A stretch of DNA of 46,860 nucleotides. It comes from a virus. The stretch is taken from the IMG/VR virus record IMGVR_UViG_3300044730_001128, positions 1-46,860 of that record; one strand, given 5' to 3'. The translations under genes were made by a program, and so were the position numbers. Positions within the stretch are counted from its first letter, which is position 1. Every line of letters starts with the position of its first letter. The notes under the pieces are model-generated. The model did no database searches and was not told the DNA's origin. It saw only the letters and a list, made by a program, of their open reading frames with translations. This document shows, piece by piece, positions 9,294-46,860 of this stretch.

Positions 9294-10175
9294 ATGGAAG
9301 CATCCTATCGCGCAGATACCGCTGCGCCCACTCTTTCCGAAGCCTGGAAACTTTTTGTTGACGAGCGCAGTGTCGCGCTGTGTCCAACGAGTCTTACCAG
9401 CGACTACCGCCAAGTCACAAAGTGGCTGGCGCGGTGTCCCATCCAAAACTTTTCCGAAGGCCGCAAGATCTTGACCTGGCTCCTCCAGCAGGAACCAGTG
9501 CCGTCCTCCCGTCGAGTCTGCATGTACGTCCGCAGCCTCTACAAGTGGGCTGCAGCCGAAGACGTCGCCATCTTGCCGCGAAACCCAGTGGCAAATTTCC
9601 GGATGCCTAAGGCACCTCAACGCGACCACGAAATCGTCGTCATTCCACGCAACGAGATCTCACTGGTGCTCGTCGCCCTAGAAAGCAAGCTGGCCTACAA
9701 AAAGGTCAACTGGTCATTTTTCGCCGAGTTCATGCTCCAAACGGCCATGCGTACCGGCGAAGTCCGCGCCATGAAATGGAAAGACATCCAGGACGACCGT
9801 GTACTGGTGCACAGCAACTTCACACTCACTCACGGCCACAAGGACAGCACCAAAACAAACAAGAAACGCTGGGTACCCCTAAACGCACGAACCAAGGAAA
9901 TCCTGTTTGTCCTCCCGCGAGACTCCGAATACGTATTCCCCTGGAACCGCCTGGCTTTCCAGAGCTTCTTCACCAAGCGTATGCGCCAGTTGCATGACGC
10001 CGGCTTCATCCAAAAACGCTACCGCCCCTACGATCTCCGCCACGTCGCCATCAGTCGCTGGCTCGAAGCTGGTATTCCCGTAACCCAAGCCGCCGCATGG
10101 GCCGGTAACACAGCTCAAGTCATCTGGAAACACTATGCCGCCAACACAACCGAATACGAAATTCCTGTGCTCTGA
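9294..10175 (+). CDS. int: Tyrosine recombinase / phage integrase (293 aa)
   Basis: The catalytic C-terminal half carries the tyrosine recombinase signature: Arg153 in TAMRTGEVR, a lysine in the beta-hairpin TKTNKKRWVPL, Arg249-His250 in PYDLRH, a basic/aromatic position in VIWKHYA, and nucleophile Tyr281. The first box-II histidine is Tyr, as in many phage integrases. Residues 1-110 resemble the SAM-like core-binding domain. Length is near normal for the family, with a reduced N-terminus that lacks an obvious arm-binding domain. It would insert the phage into the host chromosome at att sites. No excisionase or repressor is recognisable next to it. No strong ribosome-binding site precedes the ATG. 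Confidence 0.9.
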   Translation: MEASYRADTAAPTLSEAWKLFVDERSVALCPTSLTSDYRQVTKWLARCPIQNFSEGRKILTWLLQQEPVPSSRRVCMYVRSLYKWAAAEDVAILPRNPVANFRMPKAPQRDHEIVVIPRNEISLVLVALESKLAYKKVNWSFFAEFMLQTAMRTGEVRAMKWKDIQDDRVLVHSNFTLTHGHKDSTKTNKKRWVPLNARTKEILFVLPRDSEYVFPWNRLAFQSFFTKRMRQLHDAGFIQKRYRPYDLRHVAISRWLEAGIPVTQAAAWAGNTAQVIWKHYAANTTEYEIPVL

Positions 10176-11497: not shown

Positions 11498-12625
11498 ATG
11501 GCAACCAACAAGATCCGCCTCGGCGATTTGTTCCGGTACTACAAGGCCCTCCCTCACCAGATGGCGGCCATCACCGAACTGGAACAACTCATCAACAAGG
11601 CCAACCCCCACATTCTTGGCCGCGACCAAGGCTGGTTCAAGACCTGGAGTGTGGCCGGCAAACAAAGCAGCTTCCCCAATACCTGGGAAGGCATCCTCGA
11701 AGCCGCCCGCGTCGCCGGCGCCAAATTCCCCGAACTTGTTGCCGCCCAATGGGCACTGGAATCCGCCTACGGCAAACTCGTTTCCGGCCGCAACAATTTC
11801 TTCGGCCTCAAGGGCTCGGGCAGCGACACCAAAACCCAAGAATTCATCAACAACCAGTGGGTCACGATCACCGACAGCTTCATCGACTTCCCCGATTTAC
11901 TGTCCTGCGTCATCTACCTCGTTGACCACTGGTACAAAGACTTCAAAAACTACAAAGGCTGCAACAACGCCAGCACCCGCGAAGAAGCCGCCCAATGGCT
12001 GGTGAAAGAAGGTTACGCAACCGACCCCAACTATGCCGGCAAGTTGATTGAGCTGATGACCCAGCACGCGGGAGCTAAACCTCTCGTCAAGCCAAAAGAA
12101 AAAATCCTAAAGGTTGCATACGAGTATCAGCTGGGACCCGACGACGGCGCCACCGGCTACCGCCAGTGTTTCAGCTCCAGCTGCGCGATGGTGGCCCGCT
12201 ACTACGGCAAGATCTCGGGCGACTACGAGTACAACAAACTCCGCGCCCGTTTCGGTGACACCACCGACCCCAAAGCCCAAATCGCTGCCTTCAAAGCACT
12301 GGGACTAACCGCCACCTTCGAGATGGATGGCACGGTCGAAGAGCTGGAGAACGAGATTAACAATGGCTATCCCACTCCAGTCGGCTGGCTTCACAAAGGC
12401 CCCGTGAGCAACCCATCCGGCACCGGCCACTGGAGCGTGGTGGTCGGCTTCACGCCTACCCACTTCATCCACAATGACCCCTACGGCGAGGCCAACCTCG
12501 TCAACGGTGGCTACGTCAGCCACAAGGGCGGCGCGGGCGTCGCCTACTCCCGCAAAAACTGGCTGCCTCGTTGGCTGATTGAGGGTGACGATACCGGCTG
12601 GTTCCTTAAAGTTCGCCCTAGGTGA
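11498..12625 (+). CDS. Bifunctional endolysin: glucosaminidase plus C39-like peptidase (375 aa)
   Basis: The ATG follows GAAGAGGG. Residues ~60-190 are a GH73-type glucosaminidase domain: catalytic Glu88 in AQWALESAYGK, then SGRNNFFGLKG, FIDFPDLLSCVIYLVDHWY and YATDPNYAGKL. Residues ~210-370 are a C39-like cysteine peptidase: Cys224 in RQCFSSSCAMVARYY, His311 in GTGHWSVVVGF, Asp327 in HNDPYGE. The N-terminal ~50 residues (IRLGDLFRYYKALPHQ) form a helix seen in other cyanophage lysins. Together it would cut both glycan strands and peptide bridges of peptidoglycan. Flanking small membrane proteins complete a lysis module. No signal peptide is seen, so release should depend on a holin. Confidence 0.88.
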   Translation: MATNKIRLGDLFRYYKALPHQMAAITELEQLINKANPHILGRDQGWFKTWSVAGKQSSFPNTWEGILEAARVAGAKFPELVAAQWALESAYGKLVSGRNNFFGLKGSGSDTKTQEFINNQWVTITDSFIDFPDLLSCVIYLVDHWYKDFKNYKGCNNASTREEAAQWLVKEGYATDPNYAGKLIELMTQHAGAKPLVKPKEKILKVAYEYQLGPDDGATGYRQCFSSSCAMVARYYGKISGDYEYNKLRARFGDTTDPKAQIAAFKALGLTATFEMDGTVEELENEINNGYPTPVGWLHKGPVSNPSGTGHWSVVVGFTPTHFIHNDPYGEANLVNGGYVSHKGGAGVAYSRKNWLPRWLIEGDDTGWFLKVRPR

Positions 12626-12627
12626 CC

Positions 12628-12849
12628 ATGCGCCCCATCGAACACACCACCGAGTCCTGCTTCCACAAGGCCGCCACCGACCAGTGGCTGATCGACCGCT
12701 TCAACTCCGGCGATTACCGTGGCCTCCTCGAAGCCGCCCTCATCCTGAACACGCTCCACCAGCTGGAGCAAACAAAAGCCCGGTGGGCTATCCGCGAAGC
12801 CGCAGAAAACCTCACCGAGCAATTTGGCCTAGACCGCGACTCGGCCTAG
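12628..12849 (+). CDS. Hypothetical helical protein (73 aa)
   Basis: Begins right after the endolysin stop; a GTG overlapping that stop (12622) is an alternative start. The product is largely alpha-helical (LLEAALILNTLHQLEQ, ARWAIREAAENLTEQF), without membrane segment. It ends tail to tail with the minus-strand gene at 12846, sharing the stop bases. No function is recognised; position suggests a late, lysis-linked accessory gene. Confidence 0.55.
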   Translation: MRPIEHTTESCFHKAATDQWLIDRFNSGDYRGLLEAALILNTLHQLEQTKARWAIREAAENLTEQFGLDRDSA

Positions 12850-13028
12850 TCGCCCTTCTCCAACTGCTCGATGTACTGCTGGTACAAGCCGGTGTACAGC
12901 GAATGTAGCGGATGATCGGAACTGTCCCGGCCATCTTGTACATATAACCTGTCCAAGAAACGAGTCCGCGCATCATCCACGCAAACCCGCGCCCAGGCTT
13001 CCGTCGCCCAATCAGCTGGTGTGCTCAT
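12846..13028 (-). CDS. Hypothetical protein (60 aa)
   Basis: The start MSTPADWATEAW at 13028 is preferred because it overlaps the end of the upstream gene by only 17 bases; the longer frame would overlap more. The product has helix-forming sequence with DDARTRFLDRLYVQDGRDSSDH and TGLYQQYIEQLE. It is the last gene of a three-gene minus-strand unit (13487 to 12846). Function unknown. Confidence 0.5.
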   Translation of the reverse strand: MSTPADWATEAWARVCVDDARTRFLDRLYVQDGRDSSDHPLHSLYTGLYQQYIEQLEKGD

Positions 13029-13281
13029 CCTGCTTTTTCTCCACGAGTTTGAGTCGCCGGTTCCGTCCTTCCTTGGGACCAGCATGTGACCGCGCCAGCC
13101 TAGGCTTCGGCGCCGCCTCAGGCGGCACCTCCACCATGCAATTCGGGTAAAGATTCCTTGCCACCTGAATCGCGTGATTCAGCGACAACCCCTTTACCAG
13201 ATCCCGTTTGGCACCCTTACCGGGCAACCAAATCGTTAGCTCGTACTGCCGAAGTTTTCCCTGCGCCGGCACTATTTCCAT
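13012..13281 (-). CDS. Hypothetical basic protein (89 aa)
   Basis: Middle gene of the unit 13487-12846, overlapping both neighbours. The N-terminal ~50 residues (LRQYELTIWLPGKGAKRDLV, then NHAIQVARNLYPNCMVEV) look like a small alpha/beta domain; the C-terminal tail is strongly basic and probably disordered. Similar YELTIWLPGKG proteins occur in cyanophages as far as I recall. The tail may bind nucleic acid, but no function is established. Confidence 0.55.
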   Translation of the reverse strand: MEIVPAQGKLRQYELTIWLPGKGAKRDLVKGLSLNHAIQVARNLYPNCMVEVPPEAAPKPRLARSHAGPKEGRNRRLKLVEKKQDEHTS

Positions 13282-13487
13282 GACTTGGGATAGTTGGGTT
13301 CTTCAATGCTATGAACAGCAACAAAGCTGTTAGTGCGGTCAGCAACAACTCGCGCCGCCTCGACAGCACGCTCGTACGTGACCCAGCTGGAGGCATCCTC
13401 CTTAGTCGCCGTAAAACCGATTCCATTCCCTGGTCCGTAGACCGCCGTGACCCAGCGATCCCCGGCCATCACCACATAACGAGTCAT
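13272..13487 (-). CDS. Hypothetical protein (71 aa)
   Basis: First gene of a minus-strand unit of three. MTRYVVMAGDRWVTAVYGPG and the following TATKEDASSWVTYERAVEAA suggest a compact beta-beta-alpha fold of the kind that reads out in small phage proteins. Its stop overlaps the next start by ten bases. A 13-base palindrome lies six bases upstream of the start codon. Function unknown. Confidence 0.55.
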   Translation of the reverse strand: MTRYVVMAGDRWVTAVYGPGNGIGFTATKEDASSWVTYERAVEAARVVADRTNSFVAVHSIEEPNYPKSWK

Positions 13488-13492
13488 CTGTT

Positions 13493-13505
13493 GTAATTGA
13501 ATTAC
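13493..13505. promoter_or_regulatory. AT-rich palindrome, candidate operator
   Basis: GTAATT G AATTAC is a perfect inverted repeat of six bases around one centre base. It sits 6-18 bases upstream of the minus-strand gene starting at 13487 and downstream of the ribbon-helix-helix gene. A regulator bound here would block that unit. No matching half-sites were seen at the other candidate operator (13858-13872), so a different protein may bind. Confidence 0.45.
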
Positions 13506-13565
13506 TGTGTAAGTCTAGTAGATCCTGCACCATCGGACCAGACTATGAAGACATCTAACTGAGTC

Positions 13566-13841
13566 TTATGCGTCCGGTCCTGCTTTCGGTTGTTCTTGCC
13601 TGGAGCGCATTCTGCCCTCCACCCGCTTTTTCACCGACTCACGCCACAAGGCTTCATCCGCAGCCTCCGCCGCCTTGTATTCCGAGGCCGGCAGAGCTTT
13701 TTCAAGCGCGGTATAAACCATATCCCGCAGCAACGCCGTCACCTTTTTACCTTCCCCAGCCGCAAGATTTTCCGCCAGCTTGTACCGATGCGGGTCCAGC
13801 AGCAACTGGCAATACAGCTTCGATCCGTGCTTCAGCGGCAT
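13566..13841 (-). CDS. Ribbon-helix-helix DNA-binding regulator (91 aa)
   Basis: The start MPLKHGSKLYCQLLL at 13841 is preferred over a GTG at 13892, which would place the inverted repeat at 13858-13872 inside the gene. Residues ~6-46 fit the Arc/CopG ribbon-helix-helix fold: a strand (KLYCQLLLDP), helix A (HRYKLAENLAAGEG) and helix B (KVTALLRDMVYTALEKAL). The C-terminal half is a charged helix (about residues 50-91), perhaps for oligomerisation. Such proteins bind short inverted repeats as dimers of dimers and usually repress their own promoter. It is transcribed away from the small Cys protein at 13898. With no CI-like repressor visible, it is a candidate for lysogeny or early-gene control. 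Confidence 0.7.
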   Translation of the reverse strand: MPLKHGSKLYCQLLLDPHRYKLAENLAAGEGKKVTALLRDMVYTALEKALPASEYKAAEAADEALWRESVKKRVEGRMRSRQEQPKAGPDA

Positions 13842-13857
13842 GGTACGTGGTCTAGTC

Positions 13858-13872
13858 TGATACATAGTATCA
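13858..13872. promoter_or_regulatory. Inverted repeat, probable operator of the RHH regulator
   Basis: TGATAC ATA GTATCA is a perfect six-base inverted repeat with a three-base spacer. It lies 17 bases upstream of the preferred start of the ribbon-helix-helix gene and 26 bases before the divergent gene at 13898, so one site could control both. The size and spacing fit operators of Arc/CopG-type proteins. Confidence 0.6.
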
Positions 13873-13897
13873 TACTGAGAAACACTAGACACGCGCC

Positions 13898-14068
13898 ATG
13901 TCCGAGTATTCCACCCCCTGCTGCAAAGCTGAATACGGCATCGGCGGCGAAGGCTCGACCCACTGGTATCTCTGCACCGCCTGCGGTAAACCTGTCGCCG
14001 TCATTGAATCACCGACAGAAGAAGAGGCCGAGGCTTTGTTGCTCCAATGTGGGCATGGCGTCGGGTAA
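13898..14068 (+). CDS. Small zinc-ribbon-like protein (56 aa)
   Basis: Divergent from the ribbon-helix-helix gene. Cysteines are arranged as PCC near residue 8, LCTAC in the middle and QCGH near the end, which could form one zinc site. The middle (STHWYLCTACGKPV) resembles rubredoxin-type knuckles. It is the only plus-strand gene in this minus-strand block, and its stop lies one base before the stop of the convergent gene at 14069. Function unknown; possible transcription or host-interaction factor. Confidence 0.6.
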   Translation: MSEYSTPCCKAEYGIGGEGSTHWYLCTACGKPVAVIESPTEEEAEALLLQCGHGVG

Positions 14069-14278
14069 TTACCACCGAATATCGTCGTCCACTTTTTTCC
14101 GCCACGCATTGGACTGCGCCCGTCTCGCCCCACCCCTCTGCTTGGCACAGCCCTGCCGAATTTGCCGCGCCCACTCCAAAAACGCAGCCATTCTGTGCAA
14201 GTCCGCCGTCTTCGCCAGGCGAATCTCCCGCTGGAGCCACTCCATCACAAGTTCCCTTCCCGTGCGGGCTGGACTCAT
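14069..14278 (-). CDS. Hypothetical helical, basic protein (69 aa)
   Basis: Its ATG overlaps the stop of the preceding 56-residue gene (ATGA), making it the third gene of the DNA polymerase unit. The product is predicted all-helical (LVMEWLQREIRLAKTADLHR, MAAFLEWARQIRQG) with a basic C-terminus (ARRAQSNAWRKKVDDD). No domain is recognised; coupling to polA suggests a replication accessory. Confidence 0.55.
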   Translation of the reverse strand: MSPARTGRELVMEWLQREIRLAKTADLHRMAAFLEWARQIRQGCAKQRGGARRAQSNAWRKKVDDDIRW

Positions 14279-14445
14279 GCGTCTAACTCTGAGACTCGCT
14301 TGATGGACTGGACCAGTCTGCCGGGATATTGCTGCCTGACCTGCATGTGCGCCTGGAACGCATCCGGCGCCACCACATAAACATCGTGCATCGGGCCATG
14401 AAGTGCGTACAACCTGACCCGATACTCGAAGTCCTCCCGGATCAC
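14275..14445 (-). CDS. Small hypothetical protein coupled to polA (56 aa)
   Basis: A GTG start overlaps the polymerase stop (GTGA), and its own stop overlaps the next ATG, so it is bracketed by two couplings, strong evidence for translation. The sequence (M)IREDFEYRVRLYALHG... VYVVAPDAFQAHMQVRQQYPG... resembles a single alpha/beta unit with a strand-helix-strand order. Function unknown. Confidence 0.6.
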   Translation of the reverse strand: MIREDFEYRVRLYALHGPMHDVYVVAPDAFQAHMQVRQQYPGRLVQSIKRVSELDA

Positions 14446-16274
14446 TTTGCCTGGTCCCAGCTCAACCCGACCTTAGCCTCTGCGAGCGGCGGAATATCTC
14501 CGAGCCAGCGGGCTTCGGATTCCTCCATGATTGCCTGGAGCTGAGCGGCCCAGGCGTCGGCGTATTCCTCTTTTACGAGCAAAATGATTTCGTCATGCAC
14601 CACGCCGGCCAAGCGCACCCGCTCTTCCCCGTCTGCTTTAAGGAACGGCCACAGTTTGCCGAGCGTAAGTTTGAGGACGGCGGCACCAGCTCCCTGGATT
14701 GGGGTGTTGCAACGGGTCGTAAGTTTATTGTTCTCGCCCGGTAGAAACCGCCGCAAGCCCGACATGCGTATGCGGATAGATGGATTGTCCGGAGCCGCAT
14801 CAGCAGCGCGAGCATTGTTGCGCTGCCATTTGGAGATGCCTTTATATGCAGCGTGGAACTTTTCCCGCACCGTCGCAGCCTCATCAAGATCCATCTGGAT
14901 TCCCATCGCTGCTGCATAATTTCTGAGCCCTTTTGCACCACTTCCGTATAACAAACCGAAGTTGGCTGATTTACTAACTTGCCGCTGTTCTTTTGTAACA
15001 TCTTCTTCCTTGACCCCATAAATCTGCGTCGCTGTAATCGTATGCAGGTCTTTCCCCTGCTGGAACACCTGAGTCATAAGAGGATCTTGAGCTTCTGCCG
15101 CCGCCAGCCGCAACTCCATCTGTCCGTAGTCCGCTACAACCAGTTGCCAACCAGTTGGTGCCTGCACGCAAGCCCGAAAACGCACGTCCCGCGGCACTTG
15201 TTGCAGGTTGGGACTCATGCAACTCATCCTGCCGGTGTCAGCCCCCATCTGCAGATAACTGGCACGAATAAAACCATCATCCGACAAATTCTTTAACAAA
15301 GTCTCCGCCATTTGCCGCCGCTTCTCTACACGTTTCCACCGCAAATAATCCGCAATAAGTTTGTGCTCCCCAATGTATTCCTGGAGCGCAGACTTACTCG
15401 CACTTTTCTTACCGGTCTTCATATCGACCGGAGCTTCACCCAACAACGCGGTGAACTTCGCCAGCAACTGCACCGGACTATTTAGGTTAAAAACATCAGG
15501 ATCAGTTTTCTTACCTTTCGCCCCAGGCTTTGTCTGGTACAGCAGGTTCCCGTCGAGCCCGCGGTGCAGCTTGGCGTGCTCCGGCAGCGCCACATCAAAA
15601 TCTTCGATGAACTTGGCGCCAACCTCGTTGTGCTCAATGTCGAGGTCCTCGATCAGCTGCTGTAAGGAGTCCTTGTCGAAAGGAAGTCCGGTGCGCCAAA
15701 GCTGCGCCATCGCCGGCAACGCCTTGCACTCCAGGTGCCAAGCCGGCAACAACGGCGGCGACGCAGCCGCCATCCGCTGCATGATCGGCTCCCACAACTC
15801 CGTCAACACCACTACATCCTTCGCCGCATACTCCAGCTGGCTCGCCGACACATCCGCCGACCAGTCACTGCGCTGTTCCTCCTTGGAAATTTCGTAGCCC
15901 AGATACCGCCGGACCACGTGCTGGAGCCCGTTCTTCACGTTGGCCAAGCCATTGGTCAGGATCCGGCTAGCCAGCATCGAACAGAGCACCTGCCCTTCCG
16001 GGTAAATCTCATGCTCTTGGAGCCAGCCCAGATCAAACACGGCATTGTGCGCCAGCCAGGTCCGTTTTTTGGTGAAGAAGTTTTCCAGCGTGATCCAGTC
16101 CTCATCGCTGAACTGCCAGCAGTCCAGTACGACGGGCGATTGATCCACGGTGGCCAGCTGCAGCAGCCGCAGACCACCAAATTTTGGTTGGAGCCCAGTG
16201 GTCTCCACGTCAAACGCCACGAAGCTGGCGCCGTCGAGCGTGGGCAGGTGCTCGATCCCCTGAAGAATGTTCAT
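14442..16274 (-). CDS. polA: DNA polymerase I, family A (610 aa)
   Basis: Replicative phage polymerase without a 5'-3' nuclease domain. Residues ~1-180 are a DEDD 3'-5' proofreading exonuclease: FDVETTG (D22, E24), HNAVFDLGWL and YAAKDVVVL. The polymerase part has motif A VVADYGQMELRLA (D382), motif B QVSKSANFGLLYGSG (K435, F439) and motif C VVHDEI (D561). F439 corresponds to E. coli Phe762, the position used to sort viral PolA types; Phe favours the E. coli-like, fast replicative form. It heads a unit with two small genes, and the primase-helicase and SSB lie a few kilobases away. Length is normal for phage family A enzymes. Confidence 0.95.
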   Translation of the reverse strand: MNILQGIEHLPTLDGASFVAFDVETTGLQPKFGGLRLLQLATVDQSPVVLDCWQFSDEDWITLENFFTKKRTWLAHNAVFDLGWLQEHEIYPEGQVLCSMLASRILTNGLANVKNGLQHVVRRYLGYEISKEEQRSDWSADVSASQLEYAAKDVVVLTELWEPIMQRMAAASPPLLPAWHLECKALPAMAQLWRTGLPFDKDSLQQLIEDLDIEHNEVGAKFIEDFDVALPEHAKLHRGLDGNLLYQTKPGAKGKKTDPDVFNLNSPVQLLAKFTALLGEAPVDMKTGKKSASKSALQEYIGEHKLIADYLRWKRVEKRRQMAETLLKNLSDDGFIRASYLQMGADTGRMSCMSPNLQQVPRDVRFRACVQAPTGWQLVVADYGQMELRLAAAEAQDPLMTQVFQQGKDLHTITATQIYGVKEEDVTKEQRQVSKSANFGLLYGSGAKGLRNYAAAMGIQMDLDEAATVREKFHAAYKGISKWQRNNARAADAAPDNPSIRIRMSGLRRFLPGENNKLTTRCNTPIQGAGAAVLKLTLGKLWPFLKADGEERVRLAGVVHDEIILLVKEEYADAWAAQLQAIMEESEARWLGDIPPLAEAKVGLSWDQAK

Positions 16275-16296
16275 GCCGGGTAGGGCGTGTTCTGTA

Positions 16297-16569
16297 TTAC
16301 TCTAACACACCTGTCAGCTCTTTGGCCGCACACAACTCAGCCAGCACCGTCCCACCCTCGGGAATCCCTAGCGTGCAGCGGTGGTACCAGTGAACGCAGG
16401 TCCGGCACTCCCCGCCATCCGGCAACGGCTTGTGCTTTTTCAACAAATGCTGCAGCCGCAACTCCTCTTTCCCTGCATCGCTGGAGCGATAACACTTGAA
16501 GCAGTAGACGGCGTTGGTCGTAATGGCGCCGCACTGGATGCAGCGGCGGCTGTTGATTGGAACTTGCAT
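16297..16569 (-). CDS. Cys-rich zinc-binding protein (90 aa)
   Basis: Two CxxC knuckles at the N-terminus (CIQCG, YCFKC, residues ~10-26) and a second Cys/His cluster (CRTCVHWYHRC, about 55-65) suggest two zinc sites. Its ATG overlaps the stop of the upstream zinc-ribbon gene (TGATG). It lies 22 bases before polA. A nucleic-acid-binding or adaptor role is likely, but I do not know the family. Confidence 0.65.
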   Translation of the reverse strand: MQVPINSRRCIQCGAITTNAVYCFKCYRSSDAGKEELRLQHLLKKHKPLPDGGECRTCVHWYHRCTLGIPEGGTVLAELCAAKELTGVLE

Positions 16570-16778
16570 CAGAAAAAACGAACACGTAAAAATCCTGAAA
16601 GGCGCTTCATCACGCCAGTTTTGGTGTGCTGAGCTGCGCCATCGGGCAACTCAACCTCGACCGTAAAAACCTTGTGCCCACATTGCGGGCATTTCCGCTG
16701 ACGCAGAATCGACTCCGCCGTATCCCGGCAAGTGCGATCCACGTCCATCCGCTTGAAATCACACCTGGCGCATCGCAT
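16569..16778 (-). CDS. NrdR-like zinc ribbon, stand-alone (69 aa)
   Basis: The sequence MRCARCDF..., then RQRKCPQCGHKVFTVE, has the four cysteines and spacing of the N-terminal zinc ribbon of NrdR, the repressor of ribonucleotide reductase genes (typical form MxCPxC ... RRRxCxxCxxRFTT). The ATP-cone that follows in NrdR is absent; instead there is a basic tail (VMKRLSGFLRVRFF). It could bind NrdR boxes or compete with the host regulator, which would fit the nucleotide-metabolism genes beside it. This is inference; other zinc ribbons share the CxxC pairs. It overlaps the next gene by TGATG. Confidence 0.65.
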   Translation of the reverse strand: MRCARCDFKRMDVDRTCRDTAESILRQRKCPQCGHKVFTVEVELPDGAAQHTKTGVMKRLSGFLRVRFF

Positions 16779-16977
16779 TACGCCACTTCCTGTTTTTCAC
16801 AATGCACCAAGCGTGCTGGTACGAAATCCCGTACACCCTGGCCAACTCCGAAATCGACGTGCCAGAGGCATAAAGATGCCTCAAATCCAGCGCGTTCTGC
16901 GGCGTCAACACTGCCGTCCCCGGAATCGAACCTTCCTGGAACGACGTCTTAGTCGGCGGTCTCTTCGCCTCACTCAT
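16759..16977 (-). CDS. Small helix-turn-helix protein (72 aa)
   Basis: Residues ~24-68 (LTPQNALDLRHLYASGTSIS, then ELARVYGISYQHAWCIVKNR) form a helix-turn-helix of the type found in Hin/NUMOD-like modules, with the recognition helix ending in KNRKW. The N-terminus is disordered. A paralogous module ends the protein at 17744-18133. It may be a transcription regulator. The last 20 bases overlap the zinc-ribbon gene. Confidence 0.65.
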   Translation of the reverse strand: MSEAKRPPTKTSFQEGSIPGTAVLTPQNALDLRHLYASGTSISELARVYGISYQHAWCIVKNRKWRNAMRQV

Positions 16978-17743: not shown

Positions 17744-18133
17744 TCAGATCACCACCGTGGTGGGCTGATCCTGCTGGAGCGTCACGTGTTTCCACGTCTT
17801 GTTCCACTTGATGCAGTTGATCGTGGTGCTGTGGACGCCAAATTCCTTAGCGATCTTGGCGACCGACTTGCCACCAGCCTGCAGCTGGCGCTTAATTTCC
17901 AGCACCTTCTTCTCCGTCAACGCCGCCCTCGCCTTGCGGCGCGACACACGAGTCTTACTTTGAGACTTCGGAGTTTGTACGGCGGTTGTACGTACAGCCT
18001 TGGCTGCTGGTGCGACTGCCGGCTTGGTCACGTCCAGTTCGACGTGCTGGCAGGCGTTGATGGCCACGAAGGCGTGCTCCAGGGCAGTGGTGATCTGCTG
18101 GAACTGTTCGTCAGAAAGGATGTGCATGTTCAT
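17744..18133 (-). CDS. Helix-turn-helix DNA-binding protein (129 aa)
   Basis: The C-terminal ~50 residues (LTEKKVLEIKRQLQAGGKSV, then AKIAKEFGVHSTTINCIK) make a helix-turn-helix that aligns with the module of the 72-residue protein at 16759: LT....L, AG.S, .A...G, I..N..W. The N-terminal ~40 residues are a helix (QFQQITTALEHAFVAINACQ); a basic, Ala/Lys/Thr-rich linker joins them. It may regulate the minus-strand unit or bind the origin. A second ATG lies two codons in. Confidence 0.7.
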   Translation of the reverse strand: MNMHILSDEQFQQITTALEHAFVAINACQHVELDVTKPAVAPAAKAVRTTAVQTPKSQSKTRVSRRKARAALTEKKVLEIKRQLQAGGKSVAKIAKEFGVHSTTINCIKWNKTWKHVTLQQDQPTTVVI

Positions 18134-21308: not shown

Positions 21309-23717
21309 CTAGTCCCACATCCGTGCCGCCTCGTCCATCAGCTGCTCCAGTTCGCCGGCGGAGCGTTCTTCCTTTGGGGAGTCCTCCAAAAGCTGTCCCA
21401 CCTGGGCAGATCCATTGGCATGACTGGTTTTAGGGGTGGGACAGGTAGGTGAGGTGTCCCAGCTTGTCCCATCTCTCTCCACCGAAGGTGGGACAAGGTG
21501 GGACACGCCATCAGGTTGTCCCACCCCTCTTTCCAGTCCCTGACTGGGTTTTTCCAAGGTGGGACAACTATTTACACACATATCACGCGAGGCAGAAACA
21601 GCCTGGAACAACTTGGCCTGCCCGCCAACTCCAGCAGCACTACCCACCGCCTCGATCAACCCCCGCGAGACAAGCCTCTGGAGCGCCTTGCGGATTGCGG
21701 TGACGCTGCCGCCGCACAGCGGATCCGCAGCCAGGTCAGAGCGGCTCAGAGCGCGGGGATACGCAGCCCTCAGGCGCTGGAGCACCCGATCCACAATCGA
21801 GGCCGGGCTGGCGCTGTCGGTATCGACCTCCACGTAGTCCGCCAGGGAGAAGGTGAGGTCGCTCTCCAGCTTCATCAGCAGCTTGCTGCCGTCGCGGCCA
21901 GCCCTGGACTTCTCCACGGTGATGAGGCGAGCGTTGTAGCCGGTCTGCTCCACCTGTTTCTTGTCAGGCCGCCGCAGGCCCCACACCTCGTCCACAGCGT
22001 CCCGGATGGCGGTAGAGCCCCGGAACCCCCCGGTTTTATTAGCGTGATGAATCAAAACGATCGAGCAGGCGGGGAAAAGCCGCCCATTGTTGTTGGCCAG
22101 CCAGTAGATCGGGCTCGCAAACTCTTTTTTGTTCTCGTCGAACGCCGAACCCCTGGAGCAGCCGGTGATCGAGTCGATGATGACCAGCTTGGGCCGGTGC
22201 TTTTCAATCAACTTGACGAAGCGGTAGTACCAGTTCAGGTCCCACCCCATCACCACGGTCACCGGATCGGTGCGTAGAAACTCCAGATCCCGCATCTGCT
22301 GCTGGACCTGCACCTCGCTCTGGTCGCCGTTGAGGATCAGCACCGGTCCAGCCTGCACCGGCACAAGATCACCCCGTACCGAGAACGGAATACCGCGTGC
22401 AACGTGCTTGGCGATGGTCCAGGCCGACATGGATTTGCCATCACCACCAGCACCATGAACCATCACGGTCCCAGGGCATGGCAGCAGATCCGGGATCAGG
22501 TATTCAAACTTGAGATCTTTATCCAGCAAGCTGTCGAGGCCCATCTCGTCATCCTGCTGCTCGAACTGCATCTGGGCAATCAGCAGCCGCTCCAGCGCCC
22601 CAGCGTCCCGATAACCGGCCTCCAGCGCCAACACGTTCATGGCGTGGGCCGCCTCAGCCGGGTTTTGAATCTGCTGGATCTCCTTCGCCCGCCGAATCAC
22701 CTCGGCGTAAGTGATGACGACCTGGCGAATCCGGGTGACGTTATCGGCCTCAACATCGGCCACCACCTTCCGCAGATCCTCCGACAGCCACAGTCGGCCC
22801 GGCATCTGCTGGTCCGCCATCCAGAACAGCGTCCCCAGGCTCACCGGCCCCTTCCGAAAGCTCTTCCAGACCTCCTCACAGGGATTGCCGTCGGACCATT
22901 CCTGTGAAAATTCGGGATCTTCGGCAGACCACGCCGACCACAGCGTCAGCCCTAGGTCAGTCGGCAACTCCGAGTGGATCGCCATCCCCACCTTCACCCA
23001 GTGGTCCCGGCTGCCAGCCCCCTGCCCTGGAATTACTTTCAGCGCCGACTGGATGATCTCAGCTACCTCAGCCGGATCCCGATCCGAAAAATCCAGTGCC
23101 TTCCGGTTCTTGATGAAGCCACCATCAGCCACCTCTTTACCGGAGTGATCGCGCATCTCCGCCAGCAACCACCCTGGAGCCTCTGGGATGGCCTCCAGAT
23201 CGCCCTCAAAGCCGTATTCACCCGCCGGCGCCTTCCCATCACTGGAGCCCGGGTAAGCCCCGTAGAGGAGCCCCTGACGGCCCCAGAGCACCTCATAACC
23301 CGCGCCGGTATCCGACAGCCCAAAGCCCTTCACATCGCCCCACAGAGCCTCTGGGACGCGAAACAGGTACTTCGCCGCGTTGGCCTTGGTGCTGGTGACC
23401 TTCGGCGCCCCCTCCAGCGTCTCGCCCCACTTCTTCAGTAGCCGCGAAAGGTTGCGATCCACGTCGAGAATCACGAGTCCCGCGCTGCGAGCCCCGGTAA
23501 AAACCCCCACCGCCTGGAACACATCAGGCCGCCGCTCAATCTGCAGAGCAACGTCAGCCGGATTCAACACCTGATGGTGGCTGCGCTCCAACGGCGCCTT
23601 CCCCTTTGACTCCTTACCGGACTGGAGCTTGCTGCCAGCACAGTAAATCGGGGCATACGCCATGCCTTCCGGCAACTGGCGCACAAAATTCAACAGCTCT
23701 TGCGTCGCACGAGACAC
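21309..23717 (-). CDS. Primase-helicase: AEP prim-pol plus RecA-like helicase (802 aa)
   Basis: N-terminal ~200 residues fit the archaeo-eukaryotic primase fold (bifunctional primase/polymerase): the acidic pair D85/D87 in GLVILDVDRN and a motif-II region STKANAAKYLFRVPEA, where the usual His seems to be Lys. A primase C-terminal helical part follows (RDHWVKVGMAIHSE, WSAWS). Residues ~410-610 are a RepA/RecA-like ATPase: Walker A GAGGDGKS (422-429), Walker B LVIIDSITG, and a motif with VLIHHANKTGG. Residues ~640-700 are a winged-helix DNA-binding domain. The last ~100 residues are low-complexity and overlie the TGGGACA array. Primer synthesis and unwinding at the fork are expected. Confidence 0.88.
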   Translation of the reverse strand: MSRATQELLNFVRQLPEGMAYAPIYCAGSKLQSGKESKGKAPLERSHHQVLNPADVALQIERRPDVFQAVGVFTGARSAGLVILDVDRNLSRLLKKWGETLEGAPKVTSTKANAAKYLFRVPEALWGDVKGFGLSDTGAGYEVLWGRQGLLYGAYPGSSDGKAPAGEYGFEGDLEAIPEAPGWLLAEMRDHSGKEVADGGFIKNRKALDFSDRDPAEVAEIIQSALKVIPGQGAGSRDHWVKVGMAIHSELPTDLGLTLWSAWSAEDPEFSQEWSDGNPCEEVWKSFRKGPVSLGTLFWMADQQMPGRLWLSEDLRKVVADVEADNVTRIRQVVITYAEVIRRAKEIQQIQNPAEAAHAMNVLALEAGYRDAGALERLLIAQMQFEQQDDEMGLDSLLDKDLKFEYLIPDLLPCPGTVMVHGAGGDGKSMSAWTIAKHVARGIPFSVRGDLVPVQAGPVLILNGDQSEVQVQQQMRDLEFLRTDPVTVVMGWDLNWYYRFVKLIEKHRPKLVIIDSITGCSRGSAFDENKKEFASPIYWLANNNGRLFPACSIVLIHHANKTGGFRGSTAIRDAVDEVWGLRRPDKKQVEQTGYNARLITVEKSRAGRDGSKLLMKLESDLTFSLADYVEVDTDSASPASIVDRVLQRLRAAYPRALSRSDLAADPLCGGSVTAIRKALQRLVSRGLIEAVGSAAGVGGQAKLFQAVSASRDMCVNSCPTLEKPSQGLERGVGQPDGVSHLVPPSVERDGTSWDTSPTCPTPKTSHANGSAQVGQLLEDSPKEERSAGELEQLMDEAARMWD
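21394..21566. repeat. Iteron-like array of TGGGACA/TGTCCCA heptamers
   Basis: Eight exact copies in 173 bases: TGGGACA at 21437, 21489, 21499 and 21560, and TGTCCCA at 21394, 21455, 21465 and 21517. They lie inside the 3' end of the primase-helicase gene but fall in different reading frames (giving CPT, VSH, LVP, SWDT), so selection seems to act on DNA, not protein. Dense repeats beside a replication initiator gene are typical of plasmid and phage origins. Confidence 0.7.
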
Positions 23718-23749
23718 AGTGTTAGACTCCTACAGGAATGTTTGACTTG

Positions 23750-23782
23750 CGCCCTGGCCGCCTTCCGCGGCTGGGGCGTTTT
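23750..23782 (+). terminator. Strong stem-loop with T-run before the SSB gene
   Basis: CGCCCTGGCCGC and GCGGCTGGGGCG pair over twelve positions (two G-T wobbles) around loop CTTCC, followed by TTTTA. It reads on the plus strand although the neighbouring gene upstream is on the minus strand, so it would stop a short leader RNA. It may be an attenuator for the SSB gene or a guard against antisense transcription of the primase-helicase gene. Confidence 0.7.
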
Positions 23783-23863
23783 ACTAGGCTAGCCGTCCCG
23801 TCAATCCCGTGTTACTGTCATAGACGTTGCCCTCGGGCGACCACCAAAACACCGGAAACCACA

Positions 23864-27856: not shown

Positions 27857-27901
27857 CAGAATCGGCCCTCCCCCTTGACGGGGGGTGGGGTTCGGATTCT
27901 G
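27857..27901. other. Long GC-rich stem-loop between terminase genes
   Basis: CAGAATC (27857-27863) and GATTCTG (27895-27901) pair perfectly at the base; inside, a C-run (CCCTCCCCC) faces a G-run (GGGGGGTGGGG) around TTGAC. No T-run follows. Terminator, RNA-stability element, or part of a packaging site (terminase genes often lie beside pac or cos) are all possible. Confidence 0.5.
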
Positions 27902-27958
27902 GCGGGGTGGGAGCGGGTCCCAGGGAACCTACTGATATAACTGAGTTTCCTTCTACTG

Positions 27959-27967
27959 TGCTAAACT
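27959..27967 (+). promoter_or_regulatory. Extended -10 element (TGCTAAACT)
   Basis: TG-C-TAAACT lies 23 bases before the ATG at 27991. TAAACT also occurs before the genes at 34218 and 40029, and TACACT before 39443. Confidence 0.5.
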
Positions 27968-27990
27968 AAGCTCTTCTGTACTACATTCCC

Positions 27991-28200
27991 ATGCTTTCCC
28001 TTGCTCTGGTACTCGCCACCGCCTACCCAATCACGAAGGTTGGCTCGTCCTGCCCCTACGGCTACTACTCCCAAGGCAGTTACTGTCTCCCGAACGCCGC
28101 AATGCAAAGGCCGGTTCGCGCTGTCCCCCAAACCAGCAGCCCCTGCCCATACGGCACCTACAGCGCCGGCAATTACTGCACCTGGACCCCAAAACGCTGA
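27991..28200 (+). CDS. Secreted Cys-rich repeat protein (69 aa)
   Basis: An N-terminal signal-like segment (MLSLALVLATAYP) is followed by two copies of a motif: SCPYGYYSQGSYC and PCPYGTYSAGNYC (form CPYGxYSxGxYC). Each repeat has two cysteines likely to form a disulfide. Such CPxGxYxxGxYC peptides occur in marine bacteria and phages, where the role is unknown. It has its own -10 element and sits between small and large terminase, a position typical of a moron (accessory gene expressed on its own). It may alter the cell envelope or act outside the cell. Confidence 0.65.
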   Translation: MLSLALVLATAYPITKVGSSCPYGYYSQGSYCLPNAAMQRPVRAVPQTSSPCPYGTYSAGNYCTWTPKR

Positions 28201-28255
28201 AGGGGGCAGGGGTTCAATTCCTGTAATACCCTAGAAGGTACCCGTACCCGAAAAA

Positions 28256-44159: not shown

Positions 44160-46860
44160 CCCGCAAGCTGCTGCCCTTTGAGCACGAACTGATCGCAACG
44201 CTCGGCATCAGCAAGGACGAGTACCTGGAATTTGTCGCGCTATACGAAAAACCCGACTTTAAGGGCCAGCCAACAGCAGAAGTTGGCGTCGTGGCACTGG
44301 TTCTGACGATTGTTGGCATCATTGCTCAAGTTGTCTCAGCACTATTAACTCCTCAACCGCAGGTTCCTGAATTACCCGGAATCCAGAAACAAGAAGGAGG
44401 CGGTCAGCAGCAAACACGCGACGAACGCTTTTCGCCGCGATTCGGTTTTAACAGCGTCCAAGAACTGGCCACCTACGGGGAACCGGTAAACCTCGTATAC
44501 GCAAACCGCGGCACAGGCACTGGAGCAAACCCCAACGGCGGCGTCCGCATTACCAGCGCTTTGCTGTGGTCCGCCGTCCGCAGTTACGGTTCCAGTCAAT
44601 TTATTCAAATGTTGCTGCTGCTTGCCGGTGGCGCCATCACAGCAATCGACCCAGAAAAAAGCGCTTTCGGTCAAACCCCCATCCGCGATCTGATAACCAA
44701 CAACCTCTGGATGTATTTCAATCCTGGGGCTACGGGCTTCCTCGCCCAAAATAATGAACTGAACAGCCAATCGACATCAGACCCCACTAGCTACGGCCAG
44801 CTGACTGATAATCCTTATCGCATCCAGACGACAGCAGCCAATGTCCGCGTCGACGGTTTCAGCCAAGCGTACTCACCAACAACCTCCAATACTTGCGGCA
44901 TTTACGGGGTTGTACCTCTAAACATATTGCTATATCTGCGTAATTCCACCGGCGACAAAGAAAGCGTCAACCTAGGTGTCTACGCAGAAATGACGCCATG
45001 GGTAACCGGCTCGGGCATATCTATCCCTCTGAATACCACACTTACAGTTCGCATCACCAGAACCTCTGGAGCAGCACTTGCACCAGGTCAGGAAGCAGAA
45101 GATGCCCGCCGCAGTATTGTCAGCACGTTTGATGTTGCCAGCATTTTTAAACTTGGCACAGCACTATTTAAAGTCACACAACTGGTAAATCCTGATATTG
45201 AAACTACAGATGCAACAATCGCCCTTAGGTGCATTAAAGCTGGCAGAGTACCATCCGCTTCCTACACAAGCCTCGATCCAGCCTCTACAACGCCCACGGT
45301 ATCCGAAGAAGAGCGAGCTGAATATGACCGCCTACGCCCTGGCGCTTTGGCGCTGCTTAACGAAGATCAAAGACCAGACATTACTACAGCCGCGCAACTA
45401 GCCGATTCCGGTGAAATACGAGTTGCCTCGTATAGCTCTTACCGAGCCACGCGCACCGAAACAACCAACGCCAACACTTCCGGCAACAGAGGTACGACAC
45501 TTTGTCCACCAGGCTGGACATTCCAAAGTTCTGGTTCAAATGTTACCCGTAGTTATAGGGCATGGTGCCAACGGACAGTTACATATACAGCACAATCATT
45601 TAACGGTTATGTCATAAGCAGAACACTAACAGCAGACGAAATAGCTTTGCTTCGTCGCTATGAATATCTGGATAGTATTGTTCTTAATTTATCCGGTGCC
45701 GTAGACGATGTTTTCTACACCAAAGCGCTAGTACGCATCGCAACAGCTAGCTACGAAACAGTGTCCCAATGCCACATTGTTGACCTGGCACTTAAAGCTG
45801 TTGTCTACAAGCGTATTAGTGGCCGTCAAATGGAATATGGCAGTGGCAGGCGCAGCGGCTATCCAGCCAGTGACAACGGCATTAAACCCCGCGTATCACT
45901 GTTCAAACTGCGTTACAAAGAAGTAGGCCAAACTCTGTATTCAACTGTTCCCGGCGTATTTGCAATCAGTCGCGCCGCCGACAACGAAAACTACATCTAC
46001 ATCAAGTTCAATAGCGGTCTAACCGACCCAGCGGCCGCAACGCAATGGGCATTTGAGCTGGAACCGATTAGCGATCCCCTTGCCGAACGCGATGCATCTG
46101 CAAACTATTTTTACCTCGAAAACACCGGAAACCCCGTTACTTACACACTCGATACATACAGACTAAACAGCGGCAACACCACAGTGCCGTCGGTTCAATT
46201 TACAGGATTATCCCTTCTTGGTACGAACCGCAATTTCCCGCCTCAAAACAACAATCCCGCAGACCTAAACGAGTGGGACTTGTTTAACTACGACTCCGAT
46301 ACTCAACTCCAGTTTTCTTTTGACGCAGGACCGGAAATAACCCTTACTGCAGCTACCGAACAGATTATCCAACCGTTCTCCGATTACACGAGCGTAAACG
46401 GCGGTGTAACCCGCCAGCTGTACAACAACTTGGCCCTGTACGGCTTCAACGCCTACTCGGGCAAAACAATCCAAGACCTACGTTCATTTAGCGTTTTTGC
46501 TACCCAAGGTCGCCGCGTCCGCAAAATCCGCACTAGCGGCACCGATGAGTTCGGCACCGCCTGGGGTGACGACGGTTACGTCTACTACCCCTCTACTCCC
46601 GACGGCGCAAGCAGCCTGGCGCCCGACATTTTCTTGGATACCGTCATCGACAGTGACGACGGCATTGGAAATTATGCCGAAGTCAACGCGATTGATCTGC
46701 GCCAGCTGGCACTAACCAAGCGTTTCTGCCAGGCCAACAACTTGTTTATGGACTGCATGATTGCCAGTCCCCGCAGCTGGCGCGAGTTCTGGGTTGAAGT
46801 GGCCCCATTTAATTTGCTGGAGTTTGCCCGCATCGGTGGTCGCGAAACCTTGGTGCCCGC
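44156..46860 (+). CDS. Tail tip / host-specificity protein (J-like), N-terminal part
   Basis: Starts at the ATGA overlap with the tail peptidase gene and is open to the window end; its final portion is at 1-1920. N-terminal features: a polar ~40-residue start, a hydrophobic segment (VGVVALVLTIVGIIAQVVSA) and the J-type block FGFNSVQELATYGEPVNLVY with GGVRITSALLWSAVRSYG and LLLLAGGAITAIDPEKSAFG. This is the typical order of gpJ N-termini, with hub domains that follow. Cysteines at SNTCGIYG and LCPPGWTF may form a bridge. The codon use is AT-rich from about 44320 to 45700, C-rich at the start and again from about 45900. Confidence 0.85.
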   Translation, partial: MTRKLLPFEHELIATLGISKDEYLEFVALYEKPDFKGQPTAEVGVVALVLTIVGIIAQVVSALLTPQPQVPELPGIQKQEGGGQQQTRDERFSPRFGFNSVQELATYGEPVNLVYANRGTGTGANPNGGVRITSALLWSAVRSYGSSQFIQMLLLLAGGAITAIDPEKSAFGQTPIRDLITNNLWMYFNPGATGFLAQNNELNSQSTSDPTSYGQLTDNPYRIQTTAANVRVDGFSQAYSPTTSNTCGIYGVVPLNILLYLRNSTGDKESVNLGVYAEMTPWVTGSGISIPLNTTLTVRITRTSGAALAPGQEAEDARRSIVSTFDVASIFKLGTALFKVTQLVNPDIETTDATIALRCIKAGRVPSASYTSLDPASTTPTVSEEERAEYDRLRPGALALLNEDQRPDITTAAQLADSGEIRVASYSSYRATRTETTNANTSGNRGTTLCPPGWTFQSSGSNVTRSYRAWCQRTVTYTAQSFNGYVISRTLTADEIALLRRYEYLDSIVLNLSGAVDDVFYTKALVRIATASYETVSQCHIVDLALKAVVYKRISGRQMEYGSGRRSGYPASDNGIKPRVSLFKLRYKEVGQTLYSTVPGVFAISRAADNENYIYIKFNSGLTDPAAATQWAFELEPISDPLAERDASANYFYLENTGNPVTYTLDTYRLNSGNTTVPSVQFTGLSLLGTNRNFPPQNNNPADLNEWDLFNYDSDTQLQFSFDAGPEITLTAATEQIIQPFSDYTSVNGGVTRQLYNNLALYGFNAYSGKTIQDLRSFSVFATQGRRVRKIRTSGTDEFGTAWGDDGYVYYPSTPDGASSLAPDIFLDTVIDSDDGIGNYAEVNAIDLRQLALTKRFCQANNLFMDCMIASPRSWREFWVEVAPFNLLEFARIGGRETLVP
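45707..46860. repeat. Right copy of the terminal overlap repeat
   Basis: Aligns with 1-1154 without gaps. About 39 of 1154 bases differ and five differences change an amino acid (G to S, V to I, R to K, A to V, T to A). The pattern is that of two natural alleles. Confidence 0.9.

Follow-up and report, generated by a model that had tools for sequence, protein, structure and literature searches.

What does a small ribbon-helix-helix (RHH) protein control in a phage in which its gene lies next to a short palindrome and a divergent gene for a Cys-containing protein? The initial annotation of this locus proposed the pair as a good candidate for a lysogeny or early-gene switch of an unfamiliar type. 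The window, i.e. the whole stretch of DNA that was analysed, is an IMG/VR virus record of 46,860 bases, and it is probably close to a whole genome because its ends (positions 1-1154 and 45707-46860) are nearly alike, with 39 differing positions. This 1154-bp imperfect direct terminal repeat perhaps reflects a mixed population from which a circularly permuted genome was assembled. A replication cluster on the minus strand runs from a primase/helicase-like gene (21309-23717) through genes for a dCTP deaminase and a family A DNA polymerase (14442-16274, minus strand) to small genes that end near 12846, and the RHH locus is found near the end of this cluster. The SSB gene probably begins 126 bases downstream of its listed ATG (23738), where MPFLSK/MAFLSK is conserved. 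Given this later start, visual inspection of the gap between the primase and SSB genes (23718-23863) shows a terminator-like hairpin together with a conserved ACAGTAACACGG-like motif.

The phage likely infects cyanobacteria, a host assignment that we infer with caution because the capsid protein points to cyanophages (nearest named records Marine virus AG-345-A17, 49%, and cyanophage S-2L, 40%) but the terminase has its best named matches in Vibrio phages (45%) and the polymerase only 25-27% matches to mixed phages. None of the genes of S-2L, the nearest isolated phage by capsid, is annotated as RHH. Scanning genome contigs yielded a single RHH relative, from a Prochlorococcus single-cell genome, and among 386 genomes drawn from the phylum of the latter, clear RHH matches were found in two (that genome itself and G261) and weak ones in two more. 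Searches for named-phage DNA, near and distant (window positions 1-25000; 12500-14500), gave no match, and at gathering thresholds Rfam matched nothing in the window. Upstream of the terminase gene (28256), at about 27900-28255, a non-coding block (AGGGAACCTACTGAyAyA ... GGGGCAGGGGTTCAATTCCTGTAATACCCTAGAAGGTACCC) is strongly conserved in 11 aligned records, with an insert of roughly 230 nt in the window, G001 and G005. Rfam gave no match for this block, which is possibly a packaging or attachment site. Within 1 kb before the terminase gene, G033 harbours tandem repeats of about 32 bp that contain TACTATAGGTCTGGTGTACTAC, as identified by eye.

The RHH gene (13566-13841, minus strand, with its ATG at 13841 and its stop at 13566) codes for a 91-residue protein. 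None of the curated sequence models reached its cut-off with this protein, and no RHH model matched. The best Pfam match was CarD_C (E 0.0044, 17.4 bits for a cut-off of 23.1) and PADLOC proposed GajB (E 0.0039, 14.2 bits), both probably chance matches. The cut-off of RHH_1 was also missed by cut-short pieces (66 and 67 residues) of two ORFs of TrcR, a cyanobacterial RHH protein described below. A tblastn search found nothing at E values up to 1, and a profile sequence search of the PDB returned three weak matches, including the RHH proteins AvtR (E 0.24) and HP0222 (E 0.53), with a poly(A)-binding protein ranking higher (E 0.11). Among the titles listed from the open-licence PMC literature, none was on this phage RHH family.

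An AlphaFold2 model built with 36 sequences (pLDDT 82) comprises an N-terminal strand (expected at about residues 8-14, drawn as a short hairpin in the monomer), two helices (17-29 and 34-49) and a long C-terminal one (52-82). VIA-align superposed residues 7-54 on PutA (Z 5.2, 47 aligned residues, 2.6 Å), Arc (Z 4.8, 46 aligned, 1.6 Å), CopG (Z 4.3, 44 aligned, 2.2 Å) and other RHH proteins, and the model has the strand and two helices over ~45 residues that define the MetJ/Arc/CopG superfamily. Foldseek against the PDB gave no match at E <= 0.001 (best 0.59 for MazE-mt9, 0.74 for Arc); the titles retrieved, none with a good E value, were mostly Arc, PutA, CopG, ParG, ParD and antitoxins. Against BFVD, it found two viral proteins that are probable members of the same family, D6PIY0 (E 1.9e-5, 44% identity) and A0A1B1IPX6 (E 3.0e-5, 31% identity). 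The predicted structure thus agrees with the fold proposed by the initial annotation, and the 91-residue protein very probably adopts an RHH fold, presumably as a dimer.

Relatives of the RHH protein are encoded in 96 of 106 candidate stretches of viral contigs. We analysed the best 80 of these 96, which together with the window make up 81 loci. Two cellular RHH relatives have other surroundings: one (L091:10001-10360) has a C5 DNA methylase and a DUF4379 protein coded nearby and is preceded by GTGTCATA repeats, and the other (L157:1501-1782) is in an operon-like row with a PD-(D/E)XK protein, with two copies of CCACTAGTGG upstream.

Comparison of the upstream regions of the 81 loci (44 distinct 44-mers) defined a conserved element of ~40 bp, hereafter called O1, which in the window spans 13851-13890 on the minus strand, i.e. 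-49 to -10 from the RHH start. Its core is present in 78 of the 81 defining loci, the exceptions being L028, L055 and the distant L078. It was also found in six of seven further RHH loci, from records chosen through their terminase, that had no part in its definition; upstream, the seventh, L276, has the sequence of the endonuclease alleles described below. Mean column identity was calculated over 41 distinct long-type rows without Cys gene, excluding L028, L055 and L078 as well as the short and Cys types. It amounts to 0.92 in O1, 0.61 in the 9-bp spacer and, lowered by silent changes, 0.84 both in the coding DNA before O1 and in the initial 90 bases of the RHH gene. Another group (L064, L065, L067, L068, L071, L072, L074-L077 and L079) keeps only the right part of O1, TGCTAYTATGTAGCAGAGTAGAC. 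Because O1 is conserved across loci, we consider the operator-like site to be real; judging from sequence conservation, it is a putative operator and possibly a promoter element, located at the gene itself as expected for an RHH autorepressor.

The initial annotation had identified the operator with the palindrome TGATAC-ATA-GTATCA (13858-13872), located between two divergent starts. The layout is correct: the 56-bp gap between the ATG codons at 13841 (minus strand) and 13898 (plus strand) contains one copy, which forms the right-hand part of O1 and whose arms reach 10 bp if one mismatch is allowed (13854-13876). The palindrome alone is not compelling because similar ones are common, both in the window, with 19 perfect 6-3-6 palindromes and 151 when loops of 0-8 are considered, and in Markov versions of the gap, with a loop-3 palindrome in 2.7% of trials and one with any loop of 0-8 in 15.6%. 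Searching the relatives for the exact inverted repeat did not bear out its role, as perfect arms occur only together with the Cys gene. TGATACTATGTATCA is found in all six of the loci with a Cys gene and in none of the 75 loci in which no such gene was found; when all nine Cys-protein loci are taken into account, eight have TGATACTATGTATCA and one, L090, has TGATACTCTGTAGGA. Moreover, RHH proteins identical to that of the window accompany TGATACTATGTATCA in some loci and TGCTATTGTGTATGA in others, and hence the differing arm bases cannot be essential. What stands of the proposed operator is therefore a conserved element at the RHH gene, but not the exact palindrome. Covariation in the inner palindrome did not go beyond that of shuffles (78/500) among 23 distinct 41-mers, with one pair broken in 12 of the 23 rows. 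We also considered an outer inverted repeat, GTCTAGT/ACTAGAC, with 78.9% of cells paired and a covariation score reached by 6 of 500 shuffles, and rejected it, as the double changes come from a single pair.

The prominent feature of O1 is a 10-bp unit (consensus CTAnTGTGTA) that occurs twice in direct orientation at a distance of 18 bp. Among the 23 distinct 41-mers, the mean best 10-mer identity is 8.0/10 at offset 18, compared with 5.9 at the next best offset, and the direct repeat reads CTAnTGTGTC ... CTAYTGTGTA. In the window, these copies correspond to U1, CTAGTGTTTC (13879-13888, minus strand), and U2, ATACTATGTA (13861-13870, minus strand), the latter at the centre of the palindrome. 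A third, inverted copy, U3, TTACTGTGTA (13502-13511, plus strand), is located between the RHH gene and the next gene. It overlaps a module that we call O2, CTAGACTTACACAGTA (13503-13518, minus strand). O2 and the left half of O1 (13873-13888) have CTAnnnTnnCnCAGTA in common, in the same direction and with no other match in the window; in 13 records CTAnnnTnnCnCAGTA has 12 matches, all at the RHH gene, and five records have none. Short-type relatives have one unit and no O2.

Both elements are accompanied by a TAnnnT box at fixed spacing, found in each of the 32 long O1 elements. Of 58 distinct downstream regions, 48 have it as well, namely all those with CACAGT. The strict string associated with the box occurs in 25 of the 32 long O1 elements and 32 of the 48 downstream regions. 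In the seven later loci the box was found in four O1 and six downstream regions, and L272 has O1 and has lost the box at fixed spacing. The patterns for the unit, O2 and TAnnnT were defined after seeing the data, and their rarity is therefore only descriptive. A sigma-70 consensus scan of positions 12800-16500 found no promoter. TAC-N3-GTA, the centre of the putative binding units, occurs in its strict form within 70 bases upstream of the gene in 39 of 80 loci, and as TAY-N3-GTR in 77 of 80; the strict form has no occurrence in the first 70 coding bases and four in the -180 to -111 region.

The sequences found before O1 vary. In most relatives, O1 is immediately preceded by a 69-residue protein gene, located at 14069-14278 (minus strand) in the window. 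A divergent gene for a Cys protein was found inserted before the RHH gene in nine loci. In the window, this optional gene (13898-14068, plus strand) codes for a 56-residue protein with a CC-x16-C-x2-C pattern, zinc-ribbon-like by eye, for which no family scored above its cut-off. In L028 (4446-4961) and L055 (605-1105), an HNH_3 and AP2 homing-endonuclease-like gene, with AP2 below its cut-off in L055, is directly before the RHH gene, and a gene of this kind is probably present in L276, judging from its similar upstream sequence. In the endonuclease alleles of L028 and L055, O1 is replaced and TAC-N3-GTA is kept at -49. The 5' end of the RHH gene is recoded in L028. Contig 3300021963_000230 has both states, one at each end. 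In its second RHH copy, 20 differences fall within the first 74 bases and none within the following 112, a pattern that would arise if the endonuclease allele had come with a recoded RHH 5' end of its own. These three natural states before the RHH gene, i.e. nothing, a Cys gene or an endonuclease-like gene, make a neat case of inserts that coexist with a putative operator.

Is the site a local one or part of a regulon? The core site is present in 32 of 34 records, using patterns drawn from those same sites; it is single in 31, present twice in G027, the second time with three mismatches, and absent from G024 and G032. In 13 records, the strict unit was matched 26 times, 19 times within -60 to +420 of the RHH start and seven times elsewhere, compared with ~17 in all predicted from composition alone. 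The only strict unit match in the window is at O2, its own O1 copies missing the strict definition. Outside O1 and O2, TACTRTGTA accounts for four of 19 matches in the 13 records, with ~5 expected by a hand estimate from base composition. We tried and rejected a genome-wide regulon based on the O2 profile: its matches outside the RHH flanks reach at most 17.6 bits, for a best score of 22.9 in 30 shuffles (mean 9.6). In several relatives, look-alikes of weak CACAGTA type, motifs set post hoc, precede the terminase gene and are also found in the gap between the primase and SSB genes; they amount to hints. The RHH protein thus mostly does not appear to have a genome-wide regulon.

We consider it likely that the RHH protein is a repressor of probably cyanobacterial tailed phages that acts on its own gene through sites overlapping its promoter. 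An RHH dimer would bind the pseudo-palindromic units centred on TAC-N3-GTA before its own gene, of which the long type has two at a distance of 18 bp; most relatives would offer it one further, inverted unit before the next gene. Because these sites overlap TAnnnT boxes able to serve as -10 elements, binding would shut an internal promoter from which the RHH gene and the small genes that follow it, the last of the replication cluster, are transcribed, and the outcome would be a negative-feedback limit on this sub-operon. In the window lineage, the insertion of the Cys gene on the other side of O1 suggests that the site may control both directions. The fold prediction, the conserved and localised element, its repeat structure, the gene order and the lack of linkage to an integrase (see below) are results of computation; dimerization, binding, the -10 boxes and repression are what we infer in addition. 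The RHH locus is real, conserved and ordinary in kind, and with this proposal an uncharacterised, well-conserved phage protein family gains a testable function and a defined candidate DNA target.

The lysogeny or early-gene switch, in which the RHH protein would act as CI does and the Cys protein as its opponent, is a reasonable idea, since F55 of the archaeal virus SSV1 is an RHH protein able to maintain lysogeny (PMC5569661). The window does encode a tyrosine integrase (9294-10175, plus strand), as had been noted, and integrases are also present in G006, G008 (a piece), G021, G031, G421, G422 and G426. The absence of a CI-like repressor stands insofar as none of the 42 distinct ORFs scanned gave a CI-type match; there are, nevertheless, two weak helix-turn-helix (HTH) matches, a 129-residue HTH protein (17744-18133) and a 72-residue protein (16759-16977), with weak similarity to HTH, endonuclease, regulator and repressor families. 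The weak CACAGTA-like sites that some relatives have between the primase and SSB genes and ahead of the terminase gene would also fit a switch. Against these points, the integrase is not linked to the RHH gene across relatives. Among the 34 records reached through the RHH gene or, for one, the Cys gene, five encode an integrase like that of the window, and the 14 long records reached mainly via the RHH gene have a Phage_integrase domain in three cases, a piece at the contig edge in G008 and no serine recombinase. Because those records had been chosen through the RHH locus itself, we then took all 11 contigs longer than 30 kb among the best 80 terminase relatives, bearing in mind that records may lack pieces. 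Ten of them have the RHH gene and three an integrase domain: the RHH gene is present in all eight records without integrase and in two of the three with one, the exception, G422, carrying an integrase. Across the records examined, there is no sign of a link between the RHH and integrase genes, and the co-occurrence with integration functions typical of CI is not observed. G032 keeps the RHH gene at 61% identity though its terminase is only 23% identical. In addition, the core site occurs as a single copy and is not distributed over early promoters, and the units away from the RHH gene are fewer than composition predicts. The Cys protein fares no better as a switch partner, as its gene was not found in 75 of the 81 loci, where the RHH gene mostly follows the 69-residue protein gene, nor in the seven later loci. 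We thus regard the switch as unlikely, which removes this RHH family from the candidate lysogeny switches.

Alternatively, the RHH protein might be an antitoxin that forms an autoregulated toxin-antitoxin operon with the 71-residue protein coded behind it (13272-13487, minus strand), a reading we hold to be improbable. The gene order is suitable, the 71-residue protein gene was matched in 12 of 12 compared records and overlaps the RHH stop in short-type relatives, and the C-terminal helix of the RHH protein extends beyond the RHH fold. The Prochlorococcus relative also has a weak match to the RelB antitoxin (E 0.018, 15.3 bits for a cut-off of 50). The model of the 71-residue protein (pLDDT 88.5; strands 2-8, 11-16 and 23-26, helix 38-52, strand 56-62), however, gave no toxin among the matches listed (best Z 4.5); the protein is unmatched in PADLOC, and two of 27 members of its family match one PHROG of unknown function. 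In addition, a toxin-antitoxin pair would not usually have a separate conserved element such as O2 between its genes. Among its tied weak matches, the same model is similar to a chain of an RNA polymerase/Gp2 complex (Z 3.4, 45 aligned, 2.4 Å); Gp2 is an RNA polymerase inhibitor of phage T7.

Finally, O1 is most improbably a replication origin, a recombination site or an RNA leader at which the RHH protein would be an architectural factor: it is single-copy, strongly conserved and near the DNA polymerase gene, but there is no GC-skew turn at O1, the related module O2 precedes the next gene, O1 is replaced in the endonuclease alleles, and we rejected the leader as single sequences fold modestly (z -0.4 to -2.1) with no consensus RNA structure (-0.15 kcal/mol).

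The repressor reading has parallels among known RHH proteins. Arc of phage P22, PutA and CopG resemble the phage protein by the predicted strand-helix-helix arrangement, and autoregulation is usual in the RHH class (PMC5569661). Unlike them, the phage protein has an extra C-terminal helix of ~30 residues and a gene located among replication genes, and it has no sequence match to them. Two Sulfolobus virus proteins also resemble the phage protein in some respects, E73, with an RH3 fold, being a viral RHH protein with a third, C-terminal helix, and F55 one that binds tandem repeats (PMC5569661). This likeness is drawn from descriptions; both belong to archaeal viruses, and F55 controls lysogeny, which is unsupported for the phage protein.

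TrcR (All0854) of Anabaena PCC 7120 is an RHH autorepressor whose site, at -53 to -28 from the start, overlaps its own -10 box, TACACT (PMC10272220); it has a regulon, and two homologues are reported in Nodularia phages (PMC10272220). It shares with the phage protein the RHH fold class, a site at its own gene (-49 to -10 in our case) and a cyanobacterial context. The TrcR site, ATACTACACTTGTATTAC, holds by eye TAC-N4-GTA instead of the TAC-N3-GTA of the phage gene, and TrcR differs by its length of about 111 residues and by another C-terminus. Using the published motif, we identified TrcR loci in 55 of 386 genomes of the phylum, with an ORF in 29 of 30 loci examined. An hhalign comparison of 47 phage sequences with the TrcR ORFs of these 29 loci gave a probability of 1.5% (E 0.034, 28 columns) and has low power because both alignments are shallow (Neff about 1.8). 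At its most speculative, and with very little likelihood in our opinion, the phage RHH protein might read a TrcR-like TAC-N3/4-GTA site that covers the -10 box and so could, during infection, also occupy host promoters of the translation-stress regulon, the landing of the divergent gene having retuned the site into two-way control, with TGATAC arms only alongside the Cys gene; if so, two RHH lineages, one in the host and one in the phage, would have arrived at a single promoter code by convergence. TrcR is not significantly similar to the phage RHH protein in sequence, and by analogy of layout it appears to be its closest characterised analogue, a protein that may work in much the same manner.
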